DNA of 43,084 nucleotides from Bacillota bacterium (GCA_021784595.1 JAJYHT010000068.1:1-43084); one strand, 5' to 3'. Counted from the first letter of the stretch, positions 26,253 to 38,998 are shown. Notes: a model not told the origin generated them from the sequence alone. Made by a program: numbers and translations.

Positions 26253-27108
26253 TTACGTGTCGTGATAAACACCCAGTTCAAGACTCGGGTATTTGAGTGA
26301 GAAGCCTAAGCGAGTTACCTTGTTGGTATCCAATACCAAGGTCGCTTGCATGATTCGACGTAGCATAGGCGGAATGTTTACAGTCCCTTGAGGTGTCGTC
26401 ATGTCGATATTTTCCAATGCTTTATTAATTATGGTGGCTGCATCCTGAACGGTAAGCGGTTTATCATCCGCTACATTGTAGATACCAGGAGCATAGTCGG
26501 AGTTTTCCAACATCAAAATTGCTTGTACCGCGTCCTCCCGATGGACAAAATGGGTGGTGTTTTCCCCTTCGACCACGGATGCTAATTGGGGAAATCGTTT
26601 TATCGATGGACTTCCCGCACTATAGACCTGTGGAAGTCGAATAATTATAAGGTCAGTCTTACGGTTGGTGAGGGACAGCAGGTGTTGTTCTGCCTGTAGC
26701 TTTGAAACTGCATAAGTGTGACCAGGCAATGGATTACAATCGGTCTTCTCAGAGGCAGGCGGAGATGTAATGTCTCCATAAACGGCAGCCGCACTTACGG
26801 GAAATGAATCGTCGAACACCGTTGCTGATTGCATCTTGCATTAAGCATCGGCTCGCATGTACGTTAACGACCGTCACGTCCTCGTCTGACGGTCGCATGC
26901 CGCCACCTAAATGAAATACAACCTCCACATCTTTTGTAACATCCTTCAACGCATTTAAATCAGCCAAGTTTCCCATCACTTGTTCCACCGATTTACTCAA
27001 ATTTGATGCTTGTCTCCCAAAAATTCGAACATGAAAACCCTTATCAATTAACACATCTACCAAGCGTCGACCAATGTATCCTGTACCACCCGTAACCAGT
27101 ACCTTCAT
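26253..27108 (-). pseudogene. NAD-dependent epimerase/dehydratase, frameshifted
   Basis: Two frames form one extended-SDR protein of about 285 residues. The first has the Rossmann motif MKVLVTGGTGYIGRRLVD, VFHLGGGMRPSDEDVTVVNV and NGVRRF. The second continues VSAAAVYGD (the usual VSSAAVYG), then Y-A-V-S-K, the catalytic Tyr-x-x-x-Lys, IIRLPQVYSAGSPSIKRFPQ and FVHREDAVQA. The break is one extra base in a three-base run at 26799-26801; deleting it joins the frames as F-I-S-V-S-A-A-A-V-Y-G. The rest is undamaged, so it may be recent or a sequence error. Its ATG overlaps the MarR-type stop (ATGA), so it is the second gene of that unit. Confidence 0.8.
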
Positions 27109-27563
27109 TGATCCATCTCCATATTCTCAGCATTTTCAAGATTCAATACTGCTGTTTTTAAAATACCAATAACCAAATCTTCATCCTCACTGCTAATTTC
27201 CTGCATCATTACTGGACGCAAGACGTGAATTGGATTCGGTATGTCAGCCCATGGGATTGGACTGTCTTCGTTTGGAGCCAATACGTTTATTCGTCGGTCG
27301 TTTGGGTGTTCTCGACGAATGACCAGCCCCTTGCTAACGAGAGCATCAATTATTCCTGTTAGGGTGCCTGATTCGACTTTCATTACGTTTTGTAGGTCTT
27401 TCTGACTCATGTCATGGGAATTCTGTAGGTGATACAAAACCTCCCACTGGCTACGTGCCAATCCGTATGGACGTAATAATTTGTTGATCTTTATCGTCAT
27501 GACATGATCCAACTTCTTTATCCAGTGCCCCAAGTTATTTTCAAAGACGTCTGTTGGATCCAC
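27105..27563 (-). CDS. MarR-family transcriptional regulator
   Basis: A winged-helix regulator of about 152 residues. It has N-N-L-G-H-W-I-K-K-L-D-H, then SQWEVLYHLQNSHDMSQKDLQNVMKVESGTLTGIIDALVSKGLVIRREHPNDRRI, the standard MarR helix-turn-helix and wing with the D-x-R-x-x wing motif. The frame is open to a TTG at 27578, but GGAGG six bases before a GTG at 27563 marks the start. Its stop overlaps the epimerase start. Two perfect palindromes lie at and just upstream of its ribosome site (27575-27589, 27599-27615), consistent with autorepression. The inducer is unknown. Confidence 0.88.
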   Translation of the reverse strand: MDPTDVFENNLGHWIKKLDHVMTIKINKLLRPYGLARSQWEVLYHLQNSHDMSQKDLQNVMKVESGTLTGIIDALVSKGLVIRREHPNDRRINVLAPNEDSPIPWADIPNPIHVLRPVMMQEISSEDEDLVIGILKTAVLNLENAENMEMDQ

Positions 27564-27574
27564 TAAATTCCTCC

Positions 27575-27589
27575 ACAAATAATATTTGT
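27575..27589. promoter_or_regulatory. Palindrome at the marR ribosome site
   Basis: ACAAAT-AAT-ATTTGT: perfect six-base arms. It touches the ribosome site of the MarR-type gene and is a candidate autoregulatory operator. Confidence 0.45.
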
Positions 27590-27872: not shown

Positions 27873-27901
27873 TTGAATTAAGTCCTTGGGGTGCGTATAA
27901 T
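27873..27901 (+). promoter_or_regulatory. Sigma-A promoter of the mutasome-like operon
   Basis: TTGAAT and TATAAT with exactly 17 bases between, 42 bases before the ATG at 27943. Near consensus; transcription should start near 27908. Confidence 0.75.
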
Positions 27902-27908
27902 GACTAAG

Positions 27909-27922
27909 CAAACAAATGTTTC
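27909..27922. promoter_or_regulatory. LexA/SOS-box-like palindrome at the transcription start
   Basis: CAAAC-AAAT-GTTTC, whose core AAAC-N4-GTTT is a perfect palindrome. It matches seven of ten defined bases of the Gram-positive SOS box CGAAC-N4-GTTCG. It lies directly at the predicted start of transcription, a good place for a repressor. Binding by LexA is inference. Confidence 0.4.
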
Positions 27923-27942
27923 TTTAACGGCAGGAGGACACC

Positions 27943-29028
27943 ATGGGCATCATCTTTTGGCGGTTAGGACATTTGAATCGTGACCAGGCCTTTCGGCCCT
28001 TAGGGCCCTTTGTGGTGTTTCAACAGAATAAGGTGTTTGATACAGATGCCCAAGGATGGGATCTGGGAGTGCGTCCTCATATGCCTTTAAGTGAGCTTAA
28101 GTGGCGGTATCCTCAGGCTTTGTTAATACCATGGAATCCAGACCACTACCGTGAAAATTATCGCGAGTTGATTCGATGGTTGAGAGAACATGCGGCCGTC
28201 TATATGCAGGAGGATGAGCGGGAAGGCTGGTGGGAATGGCCACGTATTGAAGCCACTGCACTGCGAGATCTTATGGCAGAGATCATTCCTCGTTGGGCAC
28301 TTAGAGCAGAAATTGGCATTGCGAGCCATCCTATTCTTGCACAATGGGCATGCGATCAAGGGACTAGTCTAGGGTTGAAAACATGGGATATTGCTGACGC
28401 TCAGGCATTTGTCATATTTCCACGTCAAGAAGAACAGCTTTGGCCTAAATTGCCCTTGCACTACATCGCCCGGTGGTGGCCTCAGCGTGCTAAAGAATGG
28501 AAAATTCGTGGGTGGAGCAGTGTTGGAGAGATTCCCGGTCTAGTGGAGCAAGTGCGAAAGTTGCCGATGACATCGACACAGATTCCCGTGTCGATTCACA
28601 TTGAACAAGTCATTGAAGGCGGGATGGATCGGGGATTGGGAGAACTAATAGCCTTTGTGGCGCACCAATTAGTCGACGAACTCCGACAAAAAAATTGTGG
28701 AATGTCCCATTTGAGACTTATTTGGGAAACGGCCCAGGGGATAGAAATACGGGAGCGACAGTGGCCTGAAGTGGTAGCCGAACGGCAAAGAATCATTAGC
28801 CGAGCTTTGTCGCTGATGCAGACTCTCCCCCGATCGGAGCCGGATAAACTGATATTGGAGGTGGATGATCCCGAAGTCATTAAGGCGCAGCAATTGAAAT
28901 TGTGGAAAATGGATCAAAAGTGTCGAACGAATCTTATCCCGCGTTCTCCTGCATTTGACATCGGCCGACGAGAAAATCTTTTACAATTCTGGGATATTTG
29001 GCGAATGCCATCGCCCTTGGGCACATGA
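27943..29028 (+). CDS. ImuB-like protein, catalytically dead Y-family polymerase fold
   Basis: A 361-residue protein with the order of Y-family polymerase segments but without their catalytic acids. GWDLGVRPHMPLSELKWRYPQALLIP matches the finger region (ARxxGVxxGMPLxEAxxxCP). HYRENYRELIRWLREH precedes the place of the S-I-D-E-A-Y-L-D motif, which here reads VYMQEDEREGWWEW. LRAEIGIASHPILAQWAC is the typical SIGIAxNKxLAKxAS. The N-terminal D-x-D of active enzymes is replaced by FWRLGHLN. QLKLW at 317-321 near the C-terminus resembles the QLxLF clamp-binding motif. This fits ImuB, the non-catalytic adaptor of DnaE2 mutasomes. AGGAGG precedes the ATG. It is first in a four-gene unit and overlaps the next gene (ATGA). 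Confidence 0.7.
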   Translation: MGIIFWRLGHLNRDQAFRPLGPFVVFQQNKVFDTDAQGWDLGVRPHMPLSELKWRYPQALLIPWNPDHYRENYRELIRWLREHAAVYMQEDEREGWWEWPRIEATALRDLMAEIIPRWALRAEIGIASHPILAQWACDQGTSLGLKTWDIADAQAFVIFPRQEEQLWPKLPLHYIARWWPQRAKEWKIRGWSSVGEIPGLVEQVRKLPMTSTQIPVSIHIEQVIEGGMDRGLGELIAFVAHQLVDELRQKNCGMSHLRLIWETAQGIEIRERQWPEVVAERQRIISRALSLMQTLPRSEPDKLILEVDDPEVIKAQQLKLWKMDQKCRTNLIPRSPAFDIGRRENLLQFWDIWRMPSPLGT

Positions 29029-29258
29029 AACCGATTGACAAGGTGTGGGCTCAGCGCCAAGTGCCTTATGCATTTGTTTGGCGACAGCAATATGTATCGA
29101 TTGTGAGAGTGTTGGATTATTGGCGCGATGTTGGGGAATGGTGGCGGGACGAGCCGGAATTATGGTTTTGGCGCATTCAAGGGCAGGAATCAGGGGTATA
29201 TGAATTGGCATGTAATCCTCAGACACATCAATGGTGGATGTATCACGTATATGACTAA
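29025..29258 (+). CDS. DUF6504-like small protein
   Basis: A 77-residue protein that starts inside the stop of the ImuB-like gene (ATGA overlap at 29025). It contains V-R-V-L-D-Y-W-R-D-V-G-E-W-W-R-D-E-P-E-L-W-F-W-R-I and ends WWMYHVYD. This is the pattern of small DUF6504-type proteins (VxxVLDxWRxxGEWW...RxYY, ending RVYD), which I recall from actinobacterial ImuB/DnaE2 neighbourhoods. Function unknown; position suggests a part of the same damage-tolerance machinery. An upstream ATG at 28998 lies deep in the preceding gene and is not preferred. Confidence 0.65.
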   Translation: MKPIDKVWAQRQVPYAFVWRQQYVSIVRVLDYWRDVGEWWRDEPELWFWRIQGQESGVYELACNPQTHQWWMYHVYD

Positions 29259-29305
29259 GGTCCAACCAGAGATGGATGAAAAAGCATTCAAGGGAGGTTA
29301 AACCA

Positions 29306-29449
29306 ATGGCAAAAATCATTCCGTTTCCTCACATGAAACCGGATGCAGGGAGAGCGCGTGGTGGTCCTTTAGTTGTCATTGGGGGTCATAATTACCGGAT
29401 ACGTCCTCATTCGCTGGCGGCTTCGGTGTGGCGTTGGGTAAATTGGTAG
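29306..29449 (+). CDS. Small protein, 47 aa, overlapping the dnaE2-like start
   Basis: A short frame with an excellent ribosome site (GGGAGG, seven bases ahead). It reads M-A-K-I-I-P-F-P-H-M-K-P at the start and ends in the Trp-rich tail S-V-W-R-W-V-N-W. It fills the gap between the DUF6504-like gene and the polymerase gene and overlaps the polymerase GTG start (29428) by 22 bases in another frame. It may therefore serve translational coupling, or be a small subunit. No family recognised. Confidence 0.55.
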   Translation: MAKIIPFPHMKPDAGRARGGPLVVIGGHNYRIRPHSLAASVWRWVNW

Positions 29450-32400
29450 GCGCGCATCTTCATGCGCACTCAGCATTTTCGTTTCTCTCGGGAGCTTCAA
29501 CCCCTCCCCAATTGGTCAAAGAAGCGGCACGGCTAGGCATTGGCGCACTGGCCCTTACAGATACTTTTCGATTATCAGGGGTGCCATCGTTTTTACAGGC
29601 AGCCCAGGAAATGGGCATCAAAGGAATTGTAGGGGCCGAAGTTTTGGTTGAGAATTTGGGACATCTGGTGCTATTGGTGCCCGACACGGATAGTTATGAG
29701 TCTCTTACTCGCTTATTAACGGAAGCCTTACTCTCTTCACCTCGGCGACAGCCGGTAGTGCACTGGGAAACACTGGAGCGTTATGGGAACCGGTTAGTCG
29801 CGTTGACGGGGGATCGTGGAGGCATTTTACCCCGTCCTTGGCTCCAAGGACATCGTCAGGAAATACCCACAATTATTGCCCGACTAGAAAGCATTTTTGG
29901 TCCACACAATTTATTTATTGAACTTACGGTTAATTATTTGCCGGGCGATCGTTTGCTGTTTCAGTTCTTAAATGATGTAGCGCAAAGTCGGAACTTGCGT
30001 CTGGTGGCCACAAGTGCAGCGCATTATGCGCGCAAGCAGGATTTTGGACTGTTTGATCTGATGTCCTGTATTCGTACGGGACAACGAATTGAGCAAGCGG
30101 GCCCCGAGCGGTATTTAAATGCCGAGAACTATCTAAAGCCATGGTCTGAGATGGCTTACGCTTTGCGTTCATGGCCTCAAGCTGTTCGGAATACAAACGA
30201 ATTGGCAGAACGGCTACAAACGCCAGACATTTTGCATAAGCCGCACTACCCACATTTTCCAGATTTGCCCCGAGCAGAGTTAGGCTCAGAATATTTGGCG
30301 CGATTGGTTTATCAAGGGGCACAATCCCGATATGGAAACCGGGCGGCTGAAGTGTATGGCCGTGTGCGCCATGAATTGGCTATTATCGATGAAATGGGCT
30401 TTACCGATTACTTTTTAGTGGTGTGGGACATTGCGCGCTTTGCCCGCCAAAAAGGCATTCGATTTGCGGGACGCGGATCGGCGGCAGATTCAGTGGTGGC
30501 CTATTGTTTGCATATTACAGATGTGGATGCGCATGCCCGTCAATTGCTTTTTGAACGGTTTATGAGTCGCGAACGTCAAGAGACGCCAGATATTGATATT
30601 GATTTTGATGCGCGCCGACGCGATGAGGTAGCGGACTATGTTCGACAAAAATATGGAGCGGACCGGGTGGCCCAGGTTGCGACTTATCAAACGTTTCGCA
30701 CCCGATCAGCGGTGCGCGAGATAGGGAAAGTGTTGGGATTCCCTTATTCGGAACTCGACGCATTGGCGAAATCGCTGCCGGAACGAGCGATCGATGACAT
30801 CATCGCGCATTGGGATGAAATTCCCGAACTTCGTCAATATCCTGAAAGTGAACGGCTTAAATTAATGCTTTCTTGGGCTCGGCATATTATTGGGTTGCCG
30901 CGCCATGTGGGAACCCACTTGGGAGGATTGGTCTTAAGCCAAGATTCGCTAGATGTGGTGAGTCCGCGAGAATGGTCAGAAAAAGGAGTGCAGATTATTC
31001 AATTTGATAAACGGGACATTGAATTAATGGGACTGCTAAAACTGGATTTGCTCTCTTTGAGGACTTTTTCCGCCGTGAATATGACATTGGAAGCGATATC
31101 GCAAAAAGATCCCAACTTTTCTTATGATGCATTGCCGCACGAAGACGAAGACACCTATCGGCGATTGGACAGAGGTGAAGCGATTGGCGTATTTCAATTG
31201 GAAAGTCCGGCGCAAAGATCCCTTGCCCAACGACTGCACCCTGATCGTTGGGAGGATATCGTGGCAAGTTTAGCCTTAATTCGTCCCGGCCCGATTAAGG
31301 GAAATATGGTCGATCCGTTTATTGCGCGCCGACAAGGAAGGGAAGCGGTGACCTATCTACACCCGGACCTAGAGCCTATTTTATCTAAGACCTATGGCGT
31401 GGTGCTATTTCAAGAACAGGTGATAGCTATTGCCAGTACCTTGGCAGGATTTACTCCTGGGGAAGCGGACGCCTTAAGGCGTGTTATGACACATGGCCGT
31501 TCTCAAGAGGCAATGGAGGCATTGGGCATTCAGTTCAAACAAAAAGCGGTGGAGCGTGGCATTGAGTCTCATATAGCAAACGCGGTGTTTCAGCAAATTG
31601 TCGGCTATGCTAGTTATGGATTCAATGAGGCACATGCAGCAGCATTTGCTGAAACCGCCTATCGCACGGCCTATTTGTTGGAACATCATCCGCGGGAATA
31701 TTTCATGGGCCTGCTTAATGCTGAACCTTTGGGCTACTATCCTATTGATGTGCTGCTAGTGGAGGCCAGACGCCGACAGATAGAAATTCGTCCGATTGAC
31801 ATTAACGCGAGTCAGGTTGAGGTTTCATTGGAAGACCCTTCGGTCTTGCGCATTGGGTTTCGCTTCATTCGGAATTTGGGGGAAGAATTATCCAATATGC
31901 TAGTGGGCCAGCGTCCCAACGAAGGGTGGCAACATCCTAGTCAAATTGCGGAAACCATAAAGATTGGACGCGATCAGTTGCGTGCCTTGGTGCAGGTGGG
32001 CGCGTTTGATCGTATTGCGCCAGATAGGGACGGGTTACTGCGGGATCTAGAGGGGAATAACCGTTTAGGGCTCGCCGCTGGGCAGACTCACCATACCTGG
32101 ACCATGGCGGAAAAAGTAGCCTGGGACTATAGGATTTGCGGATTCGGGCAACGAGAGCAATGGTTGGCTCCGTGGCGTGCCAAGCTTGACCAAGACGGGT
32201 ATGTACCGATAGCGGATCTGAAGAGAATGACAGTGGGAAACATGGCGCGTACGGTGGGATATCTCGTTCGTCCGCATCGGCCACCCACCCGCAGCGGGCG
32301 TCTGGTGGTGTTTTTTTCTTTATTGGATGAGACCGGCGTGCTAGAGGCGCGCTTATCCACCGAAGGATATCAGAAATTTGGGCACTGGCTGTTTGGACGT

Positions 32401-32490
32401 GTGCATCCCATATTAGCCGTTAGCGGGCGCATAGAACCTCAAGGTATCGATGTGCGGTCGATTCGCCCTTGGATGCCGCCCTCGCTGTAA
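29428..32490 (+). CDS. dnaE2: DnaE-type DNA polymerase III alpha subunit, DnaE2-like (error-prone)
   Basis: A 1020-residue C-family polymerase. An N-terminal PHP domain (GAHLHAHSAFSFLSGAS, then ALALTDTFRLSGV) has the usual TDH changed to TDT, so its metal site is probably degraded. The palm has GRGSAADSVVAY, LLFERFMSRERQETPDIDIDFD with catalytic Asp390 and Asp392, and the third Asp540 in LLKLDLLSLRTF. HVGTHLGGLVLS, RPGPIKG and GYASYGFNEAHAAAFAETAYRTAYL follow, then a short tail with an OB-fold-like segment. The length and the R-x-R-Q-E-T-P-D-I-D-I-D-F form fit DnaE2 rather than a main replicase. The GTG start overlaps the 47-aa ORF and has a weak ribosome site, implying coupling. Operon partners (ImuB-like, DUF6504-like) support a translesion role. 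Confidence 0.85.
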   Translation: MALGKLVGAHLHAHSAFSFLSGASTPPQLVKEAARLGIGALALTDTFRLSGVPSFLQAAQEMGIKGIVGAEVLVENLGHLVLLVPDTDSYESLTRLLTEALLSSPRRQPVVHWETLERYGNRLVALTGDRGGILPRPWLQGHRQEIPTIIARLESIFGPHNLFIELTVNYLPGDRLLFQFLNDVAQSRNLRLVATSAAHYARKQDFGLFDLMSCIRTGQRIEQAGPERYLNAENYLKPWSEMAYALRSWPQAVRNTNELAERLQTPDILHKPHYPHFPDLPRAELGSEYLARLVYQGAQSRYGNRAAEVYGRVRHELAIIDEMGFTDYFLVVWDIARFARQKGIRFAGRGSAADSVVAYCLHITDVDAHARQLLFERFMSRERQETPDIDIDFDARRRDEVADYVRQKYGADRVAQVATYQTFRTRSAVREIGKVLGFPYSELDALAKSLPERAIDDIIAHWDEIPELRQYPESERLKLMLSWARHIIGLPRHVGTHLGGLVLSQDSLDVVSPREWSEKGVQIIQFDKRDIELMGLLKLDLLSLRTFSAVNMTLEAISQKDPNFSYDALPHEDEDTYRRLDRGEAIGVFQLESPAQRSLAQRLHPDRWEDIVASLALIRPGPIKGNMVDPFIARRQGREAVTYLHPDLEPILSKTYGVVLFQEQVIAIASTLAGFTPGEADALRRVMTHGRSQEAMEALGIQFKQKAVERGIESHIANAVFQQIVGYASYGFNEAHAAAFAETAYRTAYLLEHHPREYFMGLLNAEPLGYYPIDVLLVEARRRQIEIRPIDINASQVEVSLEDPSVLRIGFRFIRNLGEELSNMLVGQRPNEGWQHPSQIAETIKIGRDQLRALVQVGAFDRIAPDRDGLLRDLEGNNRLGLAAGQTHHTWTMAEKVAWDYRICGFGQREQWLAPWRAKLDQDGYVPIADLKRMTVGNMARTVGYLVRPHRPPTRSGRLVVFFSLLDETGVLEARLSTEGYQKFGHWLFGRVHPILAVSGRIEPQGIDVRSIRPWMPPSL

Positions 32491-32659: not shown

Positions 32660-34633
32660 GTGGGAGAAGGGGACCGCTGGCGCCGATTCGAAATGCATCG
32701 CATGATCTTTTTGATGCGTACTTTAGTATGGCTGGCCGTGTGCCTCTTTTCTTTAGGGACCCGTAACGCTGGTTTGGTTTGGACTTCTTGGATTTTATAT
32801 ATTGTCTTGGTGTCCGTACTGGTTCAATTTACTCCCCTTAAACTGGACTTCATTAACCCTTTATTAATACCGGTCGACATTCTATTGATCACATACGCGA
32901 TCGCTGGAACGGGTGGAATATCTAGCCCGTTATATATTTTATATGCCGTTGAAGCACTGTTTCTCACTGCCTATGGCGCCTTGCGCTGGGCCTCTATTGG
33001 ATCATTGGTCATCATATTGGTCTATGGGCTGGTGACCGACGGTTGGGATGACAAAATATTTTGGTGGAGAGCCGCTATTATTGGGCTCTATGTCTTATTT
33101 GCTGGCCTTTTAGGAACGGCATTTAGGCGTACGCAAGCGCATGTCAAGGAAAATTACCGGCGATTGGACCAAATTGCCGCGTTAAAATCGTTGCAAGAGC
33201 TAGTTGTGGGAGACGAAAGCATTGACGTCGTTTTGGCCACCTTGCTTCAAAATTCAGTGGGATTAGTAGGAGCCCAACTGGGCTACATTGTCCAATTAAC
33301 CGCTCATGGAGTGCTGATGCCGATCGCTGCGATCGGCATGGATCGCACTGCATTCAAGGAAGAGGGCTGTCTTTACGAAAACAGCATGGAAGCCTGGGCG
33401 CTGAAACGCCAGGCGGTCGGCATTCACCCTCTTAAAGATATTGGATCCGATATTAGAGATCATGGGCTGTCGGCTTTAGGAATAAGCCACGCTGCGGTGG
33501 TAGCGCTTACCGATACGAACCATCTGATCGGGATGCTAGTGCTCGGCAGCAATCAGTTTGTGGTGTCGGCCACCGATGGTGCTTTGGAAACGTTGGCGGC
33601 CATTGTCATTAATCAATTACGTTATGATGCCGCTCGGAAGGAAGCAAAAAAGCGTGGGCGTCTGCTTTCCGTTTTGGAGAGAGTAGGGCGTTTAGTGAAC
33701 CGTAACTTGGAAATGTCGATCTTGCTAAAATCTCTGCATCAGGCAGTAGCGGATGAGTTGGAAACCGACAGCTTTTTTGTGGCATTAAACATACCCAATG
33801 ACCCAGACCATGTGCTAATGCGCTATCTATACGACGATGGTCAGGAATATCCGCTAGAGGTCTTGCCCCTAACTCCGGGTGGACCGACAGCGAGTGTACT
33901 GGCGATGGGCGAGGGAAAAATCTTTAATGGCAATCCTGAAAAATCACAGCTGACGGGATCGCAAAAAGCTTCCCAAGGAATGCTGGTCTCACCTCTTATT
34001 CATGAGGGACGGGTTATTGGCGCTATTTCAGCCCAATCCTATCAAAAAGAGTATGACCAAGATCATCTGGAATTTTTGTCAGCTATTGCATCGCAAGCTA
34101 GCATCGCCATTCAAAATGCGCAATTGTACCAGCAAACGCAAGCAATTGCGCTGACCGACCATCTCAGTGGACTGGGCAACTCCCGCCATTTTTCTTTAGT
34201 TCTCCCCGCGGCTATAGAACATGCCATTAATCGCCAACAACCGTTGTCGCTGCTGGTAATTGATTCTGACAGCTTAAAACAGATTAATGACCGATACGGG
34301 CATACTGCGGGGGATGCTCATCTGCAAATGCTGGCTCAAGCCATTCAACGCAGCATTAGGGACAACGATACTCCCTGTCGTTATGCAGGTGACGAGTTTG
34401 TGGTCATTTTACCCGGCTCTCGCGTTGACGAGGCCATGGCCGTAGGTGAGCGGATTCGCCAAGAGATGGATCAACGGTTTGCGTGGCGGGATGCGGGCAT
34501 GATAGGAGTAACAATAAGCGTTGGCGTAGCGGAGTTGAAAGGGAATATGACCACTGAAGAACTTTTTACAGCAGCCGACAGAGCTATGTACTTTGCTAAA
34601 CAACAAGGAAAAAATCAAGTAGTAGCCATGTAA
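32660..34633 (+). CDS. Membrane GAF-GGDEF diguanylate cyclase
   Basis: A 657-residue signalling protein predicted to make cyclic di-GMP. Residues about 12-155 are five to six membrane helices (LVWLAVCLFSLG to AAIIGLYVLFAGLLGTAF). Two GAF-like domains follow (about 175-330 and 350-490; the second reads MLVSPLIHEGRVIGAISAQS and LSAIASQASIAIQNAQLYQQT). The C-terminal GGDEF domain (about 495-657) starts DHLSGLGNSRHF and has the active-site loop A-G-D-E-F (576-580). Ala for the first Gly is tolerated in active enzymes. The inhibitory I-site R-D-N-D (567-570) is intact, five residues ahead. GTG 32660 follows AGGAG by nine bases. It is transcribed alone. Confidence 0.9.
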   Translation: MGEGDRWRRFEMHRMIFLMRTLVWLAVCLFSLGTRNAGLVWTSWILYIVLVSVLVQFTPLKLDFINPLLIPVDILLITYAIAGTGGISSPLYILYAVEALFLTAYGALRWASIGSLVIILVYGLVTDGWDDKIFWWRAAIIGLYVLFAGLLGTAFRRTQAHVKENYRRLDQIAALKSLQELVVGDESIDVVLATLLQNSVGLVGAQLGYIVQLTAHGVLMPIAAIGMDRTAFKEEGCLYENSMEAWALKRQAVGIHPLKDIGSDIRDHGLSALGISHAAVVALTDTNHLIGMLVLGSNQFVVSATDGALETLAAIVINQLRYDAARKEAKKRGRLLSVLERVGRLVNRNLEMSILLKSLHQAVADELETDSFFVALNIPNDPDHVLMRYLYDDGQEYPLEVLPLTPGGPTASVLAMGEGKIFNGNPEKSQLTGSQKASQGMLVSPLIHEGRVIGAISAQSYQKEYDQDHLEFLSAIASQASIAIQNAQLYQQTQAIALTDHLSGLGNSRHFSLVLPAAIEHAINRQQPLSLLVIDSDSLKQINDRYGHTAGDAHLQMLAQAIQRSIRDNDTPCRYAGDEFVVILPGSRVDEAMAVGERIRQEMDQRFAWRDAGMIGVTISVGVAELKGNMTTEELFTAADRAMYFAKQQGKNQVVAM

Positions 34634-34787: not shown

Positions 34788-34863
<76 letters not shown>

Positions 34864-34867
34864 AAGT

Positions 34868-34943
34868 GACCCCATGGTCTAGAGGCCTAGGACATCACCC
34901 TTTCAAGGTGGTAACCCGGGTTCGAATCCCGGTGGGGTCACCA
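34868..34943 (+). tRNA. tRNA-Glu (anticodon TTC)
   Basis: A 76-base cloverleaf: acceptor GACCCCA/TGGGGTC, anticodon stem CACC/GGTG around CTTTCAA, T arm CCGGGTTCGAATCCCGG, CCA encoded. Four bases after the preceding tRNA. Confidence 0.97.
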
Positions 34944-34948
34944 TTATT

Positions 34949-35025
34949 GGGCCATTAGCTCAGATGGTTAGAGCATCCGCCTTTTAAGCGGAGTGTCGAA
35001 GGTTCGAGTCCTTCATGGCCCACCA
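34949..35025 (+). tRNA. tRNA-Lys (anticodon TTT)
   Basis: A 77-base cloverleaf: acceptor GGGCCAT/ATGGCCC, anticodon stem CCGC/GCGG around CTTTTAA, T loop GTTCGAG, CCA encoded. Confidence 0.97.
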
Positions 35026-35032
35026 TAAATGC

Positions 35033-35109
35033 AGGCCAGTAGCTCCAATTGGTAGAGCAGCGGACTCCAAATCCGCCTGTTGGGGGTTCGAGTCCCTCCT
35101 GGCCTGCCA
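35033..35109 (+). tRNA. tRNA-Trp (anticodon CCA)
   Basis: A 77-base cloverleaf: acceptor AGGCCAG/CTGGCCT with discriminator G, anticodon loop CTCCAAA giving CCA, terminal CCA encoded. Confidence 0.97.
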
Positions 35110-35114
35110 CTTTT

Positions 35115-35188
35115 GCGGGTGTAGCTCAATGGTAGAGCCTCAGCCTTCCAAGCTGATCACGTGGGTTCGATTCCCATCACCCGCTCCA
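35115..35188 (+). tRNA. tRNA-Gly (anticodon TCC)
   Basis: A 74-base cloverleaf: acceptor GCGGGTG/CACCCGC, discriminator T, anticodon stem CAGC/GCTG around CTTCCAA, CCA encoded. Confidence 0.97.
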
Positions 35189-35195
35189 ATAACTT

Positions 35196-35271
35196 GGGGC
35201 TTTAGCTCAGCTGGGAGAGCGCCTGCTTTGCACGCAGGAGGTCAGCGGTTCGATCCCGCTAAGCTCCACCA
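35196..35271 (+). tRNA. tRNA-Ala (anticodon TGC)
   Basis: A 76-base cloverleaf: acceptor GGGGCTT/AAGCTCC (one G-U), anticodon stem CCTGC/GCAGG around TTTGCAC, CCA encoded. With the GGC gene at 34788 it gives two alanine isoacceptors in one cluster. Confidence 0.97.
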
Positions 35272-37385: not shown

Positions 37386-37461
37386 TGGGGAGTCGCCAAG
37401 TTGGTAAGGCACGGGACTTTGGATCCCGCACGCGCAGGTTCGAGTCCTGCCTCCCCAGCCA
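37386..37461 (+). tRNA. tRNA-Gln (anticodon TTG)
   Basis: A 76-base cloverleaf: acceptor TGGGGAG/CTCCCCA with discriminator G, anticodon stem CGGGA/TCCCG around CTTTGGA, T loop GTTCGAG, CCA encoded. It borders a region of broken mobile DNA. Confidence 0.96.
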
Positions 37462-38396: not shown

Positions 38397-38998
38397 GTGC
38401 GCCCAGATAAGTGGGTCGTGTTGAGCCGGTGCAATTCCGGTCCTCGCACGAGCTAGCCACTCACGAGGAAGCGAGTGTTGGGTGAGTATTCGTGAGGATA
38501 GTCATCAAGCGTACACAGCGCGACGTCCAGGCCGTAACCCTACGGGGTGAAGTGATTGAGCTTCGTGACAAATGAAATCCGTGGGCCGACCGTCTTAAGC
38601 AACCGGGAAGGCAATAGTACGAACCTGACACAGGCAAGGGTTCGGGAGACCATGGCGGAGTCGGAGAGCACGGCATGGCGGAAAGCGACACGGCACCAAA
38701 CTGGGGAGACCCCGGCCCTTCGCACAAAGCGCGTACGCTCCACCCGATAGGCGGTGCCGAAGGACAGCGGACGGGGGTCGAGGAGTCAGAGCTCGTGATA
38801 GTACTCCGCGCGTGGGAAAGCCACGTACATGGGGAAGCGCGAGCACAAAACACCGCGAGTCATCGCACCATTTCCCTCACACACAGAGGAGGAGACGAAA
38901 TGTTACCAGACTTGACCCGCATCACCCGAAAAGCGAGCGCTATAGAATCTGACGCGAATCATCGGTCGGTCGCCGTGTCGGCGGCCGATTTCCAATGA
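38397..38998 (+). mobile_element. Group II intron, 5' fragment (domains I-IV, truncated)
   Basis: Begins GTGCGCCCAGATAA, the canonical 5' end of bacterial group II introns. It continues with structured, G+C-rich RNA-like sequence containing landmarks seen upstream of intron reverse transcriptases: GAGTCAGAGCTC...ATAGTACTCCG near 38782-38811 and GGGAAAGCCAC near 38815. A ribosome site and the first codons of the intron-encoded protein follow at 38900. The reverse transcriptase, maturase and domains V-VI are absent, so it cannot splice or move. The spurious 130-codon minus frame here is the shadow commonly seen across such introns. Confidence 0.72.
38900..38998 (+). pseudogene. Group II intron-encoded reverse transcriptase, N-terminal remnant
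   Basis: ATG 38900 follows AGGAGGAG. The first residues (MLPDLTRITRKAS) fit the N-terminus of group II intron proteins (M-L-x-x-L-x-R-I-x-x-K-A). After about 15-20 residues the family resemblance ends and a stop comes at 38998, so nearly the whole protein is lost. Confidence 0.55.

Follow-up and report, generated by a model that had tools for sequence, protein, structure and literature searches.

A predicted SOS-inducible, ImuA-less DnaE2 cassette with a split ImuB and a conserved microprotein in Sulfobacillaceae

DnaE2 is rare in Gram-positive bacteria that have PolC. Contig C11 of a 3.79 Mb Bacillota genome (97.5% complete), which is the window analysed here (the whole stretch of 43,084 nucleotides), carries at 27943-32490 (+) four tightly packed ORFs encoding an iPolY/ImuB core, a DUF6504 protein, a 47-aa product and DnaE2. 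The first-pass annotation had described this unit as a DnaE2/dead-Y-polymerase cassette without ImuA in a Gram-positive-type genome, and had proposed that one of the two small proteins may do the work of ImuA. The locus raises the question of what, if anything, stands in for ImuA. All four ORFs were found in place and closely packed on the plus strand, and the description of an ImuA-less cassette was borne out: the genome encodes PolC (G000:C44), and profile searches for ImuA returned RecA only. In addition to PolC and the cassette DnaE2, the genome contains a second DnaE (C95), one ordinary, active-looking Y-family polymerase (C85), one RecA gene and a LexA gene. We conclude that the cassette very probably encodes a translesion mutasome that is SOS-inducible, does without ImuA and has its ImuB split in two.

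Composition of the cassette

The first ORF (27943-29028, +) encodes a protein of 361 aa that matched the Pfam IMS model (E 2e-5). Phmmer against the PDB gave weak Y-family matches, which are superseded by a fold search. Using an AF2 model built from a 35-sequence alignment (pLDDT 82), we found Y-family polymerases throughout the top 50 Foldseek matches, the best being 7yll (E 2.6e-15), with modest TM-scores of ~0.4 and identities of 15-18%. The profile of this protein matched canonical ImuB at E 1.1e-10 and DinB at 3e-7. The claim that it lacks the catalytic acids of Y-family polymerases held for both aspartates: the equivalent of D7 is R7 and that of D105 is R93. Among 35 relatives, none has Asp at the first position, and the second is occupied by Arg, Gly, Gln, Trp or Met; the E106 position is Glu in 12 of the 35. 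An acid at position 91, two residues upstream, is common among the relatives, yet it is out of register. As judged from its predicted structure and its sequence, the ImuB-like protein is a Y-family fold with an inactivated active site; the lack of such a fold, which the first-pass annotation had named as an outcome that would refute its reading, was not observed. The proposed QLKLW clamp-type motif was also recovered, at residues 317-321; its family form is Q[LM]x[WL]W, and Q317 is invariant in the 35 relatives. The C-terminal tail carries a conserved RRExxLxxWDxWR, in which W350, D351 and R354 are invariant, and order-level relatives share the same tail.

The second ORF (29025-29258, +; 77 aa from the ATG) matched Pfam DUF6504 (E 3e-9). 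It starts with the ATG at 29025, which shares an ATGA with the stop codon of the ImuB core; the core ends at 29028, and the two lie in different reading frames. With an 86-aa version of the protein, tblastn gave weak matches to the C terminus of 'DNA polymerase Y family protein' on alphaproteobacterial plasmids. Hhalign aligned the protein with the C-terminal 77 residues of four canonical ImuB proteins (E 2.4e-7), and the Pfam DUF6504 model matched residues 531-603 of Novosphingobium ImuB above its cut-off (E 1.4e-5) as well as the standalone ImuB-C of Deinococcus aetherius. On the basis of these alignments, the DUF6504 protein is ImuB-C, the domain that forms the C terminus of canonical ImuB, here separately encoded. 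We therefore rejected it as a substitute for ImuA, a role for which it had been considered. The same result explains why the ImuB had seemed short or 'minimal', a description that did not survive: the core and ImuB-C together make up a whole ImuB in two pieces.

The last ORF (29428-32490, +) encodes a DnaE2 error-prone C-family polymerase. The NCBIfam error-prone polymerase model scored 817 bits and the DnaE1 model 755, both below the models' own cut-offs. In a maximum-likelihood tree, in which three long branches call for caution, it grouped with proteobacterial, Thermomicrobium and Deinococcus DnaE2 and apart from the DnaE1 of E. coli and Streptomyces (100/98). Both results agree with the DnaE2 identity first assigned to it, as opposed to that of a main replicase. 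In the same tree it stood beside, not inside, four proteobacterial DnaE2A. All three residues of its catalytic Asp triad are intact, and no clamp motif was found at the DnaE1 position, which fits clamp contact via iPolY.

Contig searches with an ImuB-C alignment identified related cassettes in Sulfobacillus species (S. benefaciens AMDSBA4, S. thermotolerans Kr1, S. harzensis and S. acidophilus AMDSBA3) and in Bacillota MAGs; the same kind of search with DnaE2 alone as the query gave no matches. We use 'Sulfobacillaceae' as a label for family f1 of the relatives, assigned from the Sulfobacillus names among the cassette carriers. The gene order iPolY-DUF6504-DnaE2 is kept in relatives. The order-level loci L073-L080 retain iPolY and ImuB-C, and also DnaE2 where the contig or match extends. 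Two genomes of genus g4 in the same family (G007 and G016, both >95% complete) had no match to the ImuB-like protein, which suggests that the cassette was lost in one genus of the family.

The 47-residue microprotein

The remaining ORF, also noted in the first-pass annotation, is present at 29306-29449 (+), and its 47-aa product has the consensus MGKVIPFP...G..YRIRP.S...R.W. A profile built from 15 seeds matched an ORF in all 27 Sulfobacillaceae loci (E 4e-9 or better), including 12 loci outside the seed. In close pairs, dN was well below dS (for example, 0.10 versus 0.34 and 0.19 versus 0.67), and dN/dS was roughly 0-0.3 in the pairs in which it was measurable. By this pattern of substitution, the ORF is a real, conserved microprotein under purifying selection. 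AF2 predicted a beta-hairpin followed by a helix with moderate confidence (pLDDT 73, pTM 0.37), and searches of Pfam, NCBIfam and PHROGs, and by fold, gave nothing significant. A phylum-wide search yielded credible matches in Sulfobacillaceae only, the rest being weak, partial or containing stops. There was no profile match in the order-level loci L073-L080, in several of which gaps of 24-97 nt leave little room for such a gene. We also found no microprotein-like ORF in the corresponding gap of D. aetherius or in proteobacterial cassettes.

One possible explanation is that the ORF is a mere leader peptide that couples the translation of ImuB-C and DnaE2 and whose product has no function. The ORF is short, its 3' end overlaps the DnaE2 start by 22 nt, and it overlaps or nearly abuts that start in many loci. 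However, its amino acids are conserved while synonymous sites diverge, which coupling would not need, and in one relative (L056) the microprotein remains beside DnaE2 despite an inserted IscB-like gene that separates both from ImuB-C. Because conservation at the protein level disfavours a mere leader ORF, we consider this reading unlikely. The overlaps themselves (ATGA between iPolY and ImuB-C, and 22 nt between the microprotein and DnaE2) suggest that translation is coupled. Our best guess is that the microprotein is an accessory subunit or a DnaE2 assembly or regulatory factor. If it is a subunit, it would provide a short handle on DnaE2 loading and control.

ImuA and the known ImuA-less systems

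In a genome-wide search for ImuA or a RecA-like ImuA, the single RecA was the only gene returned, whether the search used PF00154, NF033429 or a proteobacterial ImuA profile. Neither this genome nor any of 41 relatives (42 genomes in all) gave a match above the ImuA cut-off, and the same profiles found no ImuA in S. thermotolerans Kr1 (G025), whose assembly is a single contig. The NCBIfam ImuA model is not sensitive to all kinds of ImuA, and the control genomes, Caulobacter among them, all stay below its cut-off; given this limited sensitivity and a genome completeness of 97.5%, the absence of ImuA is strong but not absolute. As a rule, each genome has one RecA; in G047 the match is in two pieces. 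An order-level genome, G041, has a second RecA-like gene (G041:C9:8687-9505; 344 aa open frame, E 1.5e-50), with an iPolY/ImuB-C/DnaE2 cassette on another contig.

Systems of the ImuA-less kind were published in 2013, 2019, 2021 and 2026 (PMC3765255, PMC6511836, PMC8072749, PMC12926913). Aravind et al. defined ImuB-C in 2013, including a standalone form beside DnaE2 with an inactive DinB (PMC3765255). The study of Timinskas and Venclovas (2019) describes ImuA-less operons with an inactive Y-polymerase, standalone ImuB-C and DnaE2, as in Kyrpidia tusciae, and proposes that RecA stands in for ImuA (PMC6511836). In the 2026 survey, such systems are named DnaE2X, may be ancestral to ImuA-ImuB-DnaE2 and are the only ones found with all three replication-system types; its models of the M. 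tuberculosis complex place ImuB-C against the DnaE2 PHP domain (PMC12926913). In Deinococcus deserti, imuY-imuB-C-dnaE2 is SOS-controlled, and mutants lacking imuY or dnaE2 lose UV mutagenesis, which also requires chromosomal RecA; among the ImuA-less type, cassette-dependent damage-induced mutagenesis has been shown only in Deinococcus (PMC8072749).

In its parts and layout, our cassette matches the published ImuA-less iPolY/ImuB-C/DnaE2 systems and therefore belongs with this known kind. Like the Kyrpidia/DnaE2X type, it has a single operon for DnaE2, a standalone ImuB-C and an inactivated Y-family polymerase, and no ImuA; that type, too, occurs in PolC species. It differs by the additional conserved microprotein between ImuB-C and DnaE2, and possibly in the RecA-NT motif that the Y-polymerase of the known ImuA-less systems is said to carry. 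Neither inspection by eye nor Pfam DUF4113 nor hhalign against RecA N-termini revealed a clear RecA-NT motif in the tail of iPolY, although hhalign also missed the control ImuB and UmuC tails and DUF4113 missed the ImuB tails. The Deinococcus system has the same three proteins in the same order under SOS control, whereas lexA is the first gene there (the plasmid copy of D. aetherius reads lexA, Y-family, DUF6504, dnaE) and lies elsewhere in the genome here; the D. aetherius gap contains no microprotein-like ORF, and the sequences are very distant. With the canonical mutasome of Mycobacterium, Caulobacter and Pseudomonas, the cassette shares a dead Y-family scaffold with a clamp motif, the ImuB-C domain, DnaE2 and, by prediction here, LexA control, but it has no ImuA, its ImuB-C is a separate protein and not fused, and in our tree its DnaE2 is placed outside the DnaE2A of Proteobacteria. 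Other bacteria have already been shown to possess the general arrangement; what appears to be new, judged against the main texts examined, is its wide spread in Sulfobacillaceae and the conserved microprotein. The main texts of the papers on the Kyrpidia/DnaE2X type do not name Sulfobacillus, which may appear in their supplements (PMC6511836, PMC12926913), and the main texts of the literature examined mention neither the microprotein nor DnaE2 together with Sulfobacillus. In this Gram-positive family, whose members have PolC as well, a split ImuB without ImuA is the rule.

RecA probably replaces ImuA, although a clear RecA-NT motif was not visible. The microprotein could instead take that part in a minimal mutasome, bridging iPolY/ImuB-C and DnaE2 or a RecA filament. 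It is present between ImuB-C and DnaE2 in every Sulfobacillaceae cassette examined and is under purifying selection, and the conserved RRExxLxxWDxWR tail of iPolY needs a partner while no clear RecA-NT is visible. However, the microprotein has no similarity to RecA or ImuA, its moderately confident hairpin-and-helix prediction has no fold match, and order-level relatives, which share this iPolY tail and retain the remaining genes, lack it, so that an ImuA-less system can do without it. We regard this reading as quite improbable. We give similarly little credence to a four-subunit mutasome specific to Sulfobacillaceae, in which the microprotein would be essential, would assume the bridging role of ImuA/RecA and would accompany a dead Y-polymerase without RecA-NT. 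If RecA-NT is truly absent, the WDxWR tail and the microprotein would be the obvious places for a replacement contact, and the order, with its cassettes with and without the microprotein, provides a natural test of the purpose of ImuA. A canonical ImuA-ImuB-DnaE2 mutasome whose imuA lies elsewhere or was lost from the assembly is highly improbable, for although the genome is 97.5% complete and a very divergent ImuA could escape the profiles, three profiles found one RecA and no ImuA in this genome, none of the 41 relatives added a match above the cut-off, and ImuB-C is encoded apart from ImuB, whereas the canonical form has the two fused.

Predicted SOS control, proposed mechanism and surroundings

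Consistent with SOS control, the cassette is preceded at 27909-27922 (+) by a Gram-positive-type LexA box, CAAACAAATGTTTC, which matches the pattern CRAACRNRYGTTYS. This pattern has 7 sites in the 3.79 Mb genome, and the other 6 are not clearly ahead of known SOS genes; inspection by eye of the sequence immediately 5' of lexA and recA in this genome revealed no LexA box. Of 35 related loci, 32 have an equivalent box <=150 bp from the gene start, where chance would give ~0.03 per 150 bp; in 2 of the other 3 the box is somewhat farther off or becomes apparent when a longer open frame is taken as the reference. We identify the box at 27909-27922 on the strength of this conservation at the cassette operon. 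Directly before it stands a sigma-70-like promoter candidate, TTGAAT-17-TATAAT (27873-27901, +), the best-scoring match of the region (10/12). The promoter scan overall found no more sites than in shuffled sequences, so the weight of this candidate comes from its position and the conservation of the adjoining LexA box, not from the scan. Together with the lexA gene, the conserved predicted box suggests that the cassette is under LexA control.

For the ImuA-less mutasome that we favour, we infer induction, complex formation, RecA contact, mutagenesis and a role for the microprotein as follows. DNA damage would activate RecA, LexA would leave the box at 27909-27922, and the operon would be transcribed. 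The dead Y-family protein would act as a scaffold whose QLKLW motif docks on the beta clamp, and ImuB-C, made beside iPolY by ATGA-coupled translation, would link iPolY to DnaE2. DnaE2, itself devoid of a recognisable clamp motif, would copy across the lesion and create mutations. The RecA-fold contact would most likely come from RecA and not from ImuA, and the microprotein may be a lineage-specific accessory subunit, possibly aiding DnaE2 assembly or regulation.

In some relatives, IscB-like RNA-guided nuclease genes with an RRXRR domain are inserted inside the cassette (L056:4004-5290 and L069:4246-5541, both on the minus strand), on one side or the other of ImuB-C, separating it from the microprotein or from iPolY. 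The L056 insert has HNH alongside RRXRR; in L064, an insert is indicated only by a gap in the cassette that matches these inserts in size. Upstream of the cassette in the window, an NAD-dependent epimerase-like gene at 26253-27108 (-) appears split over two frames (26253-26834 and 26749-27108) and is probably frameshifted; it adjoins a MarR-type regulator at 27105-27578. Directly downstream of DnaE2 is a GAF-GGDEF diguanylate cyclase (32660-34633, +). Many Sulfobacillaceae and order-level loci have a gene of similar size 3' of DnaE2, in some cases separated from it by a short gene that looks like a flavin reductase. Farther along the window are a six-tRNA cluster (34788-35268, +), one further tRNA (37386-37458, +) and a group II intron RNA match (38432-38670, +; Rfam, 135 bits).
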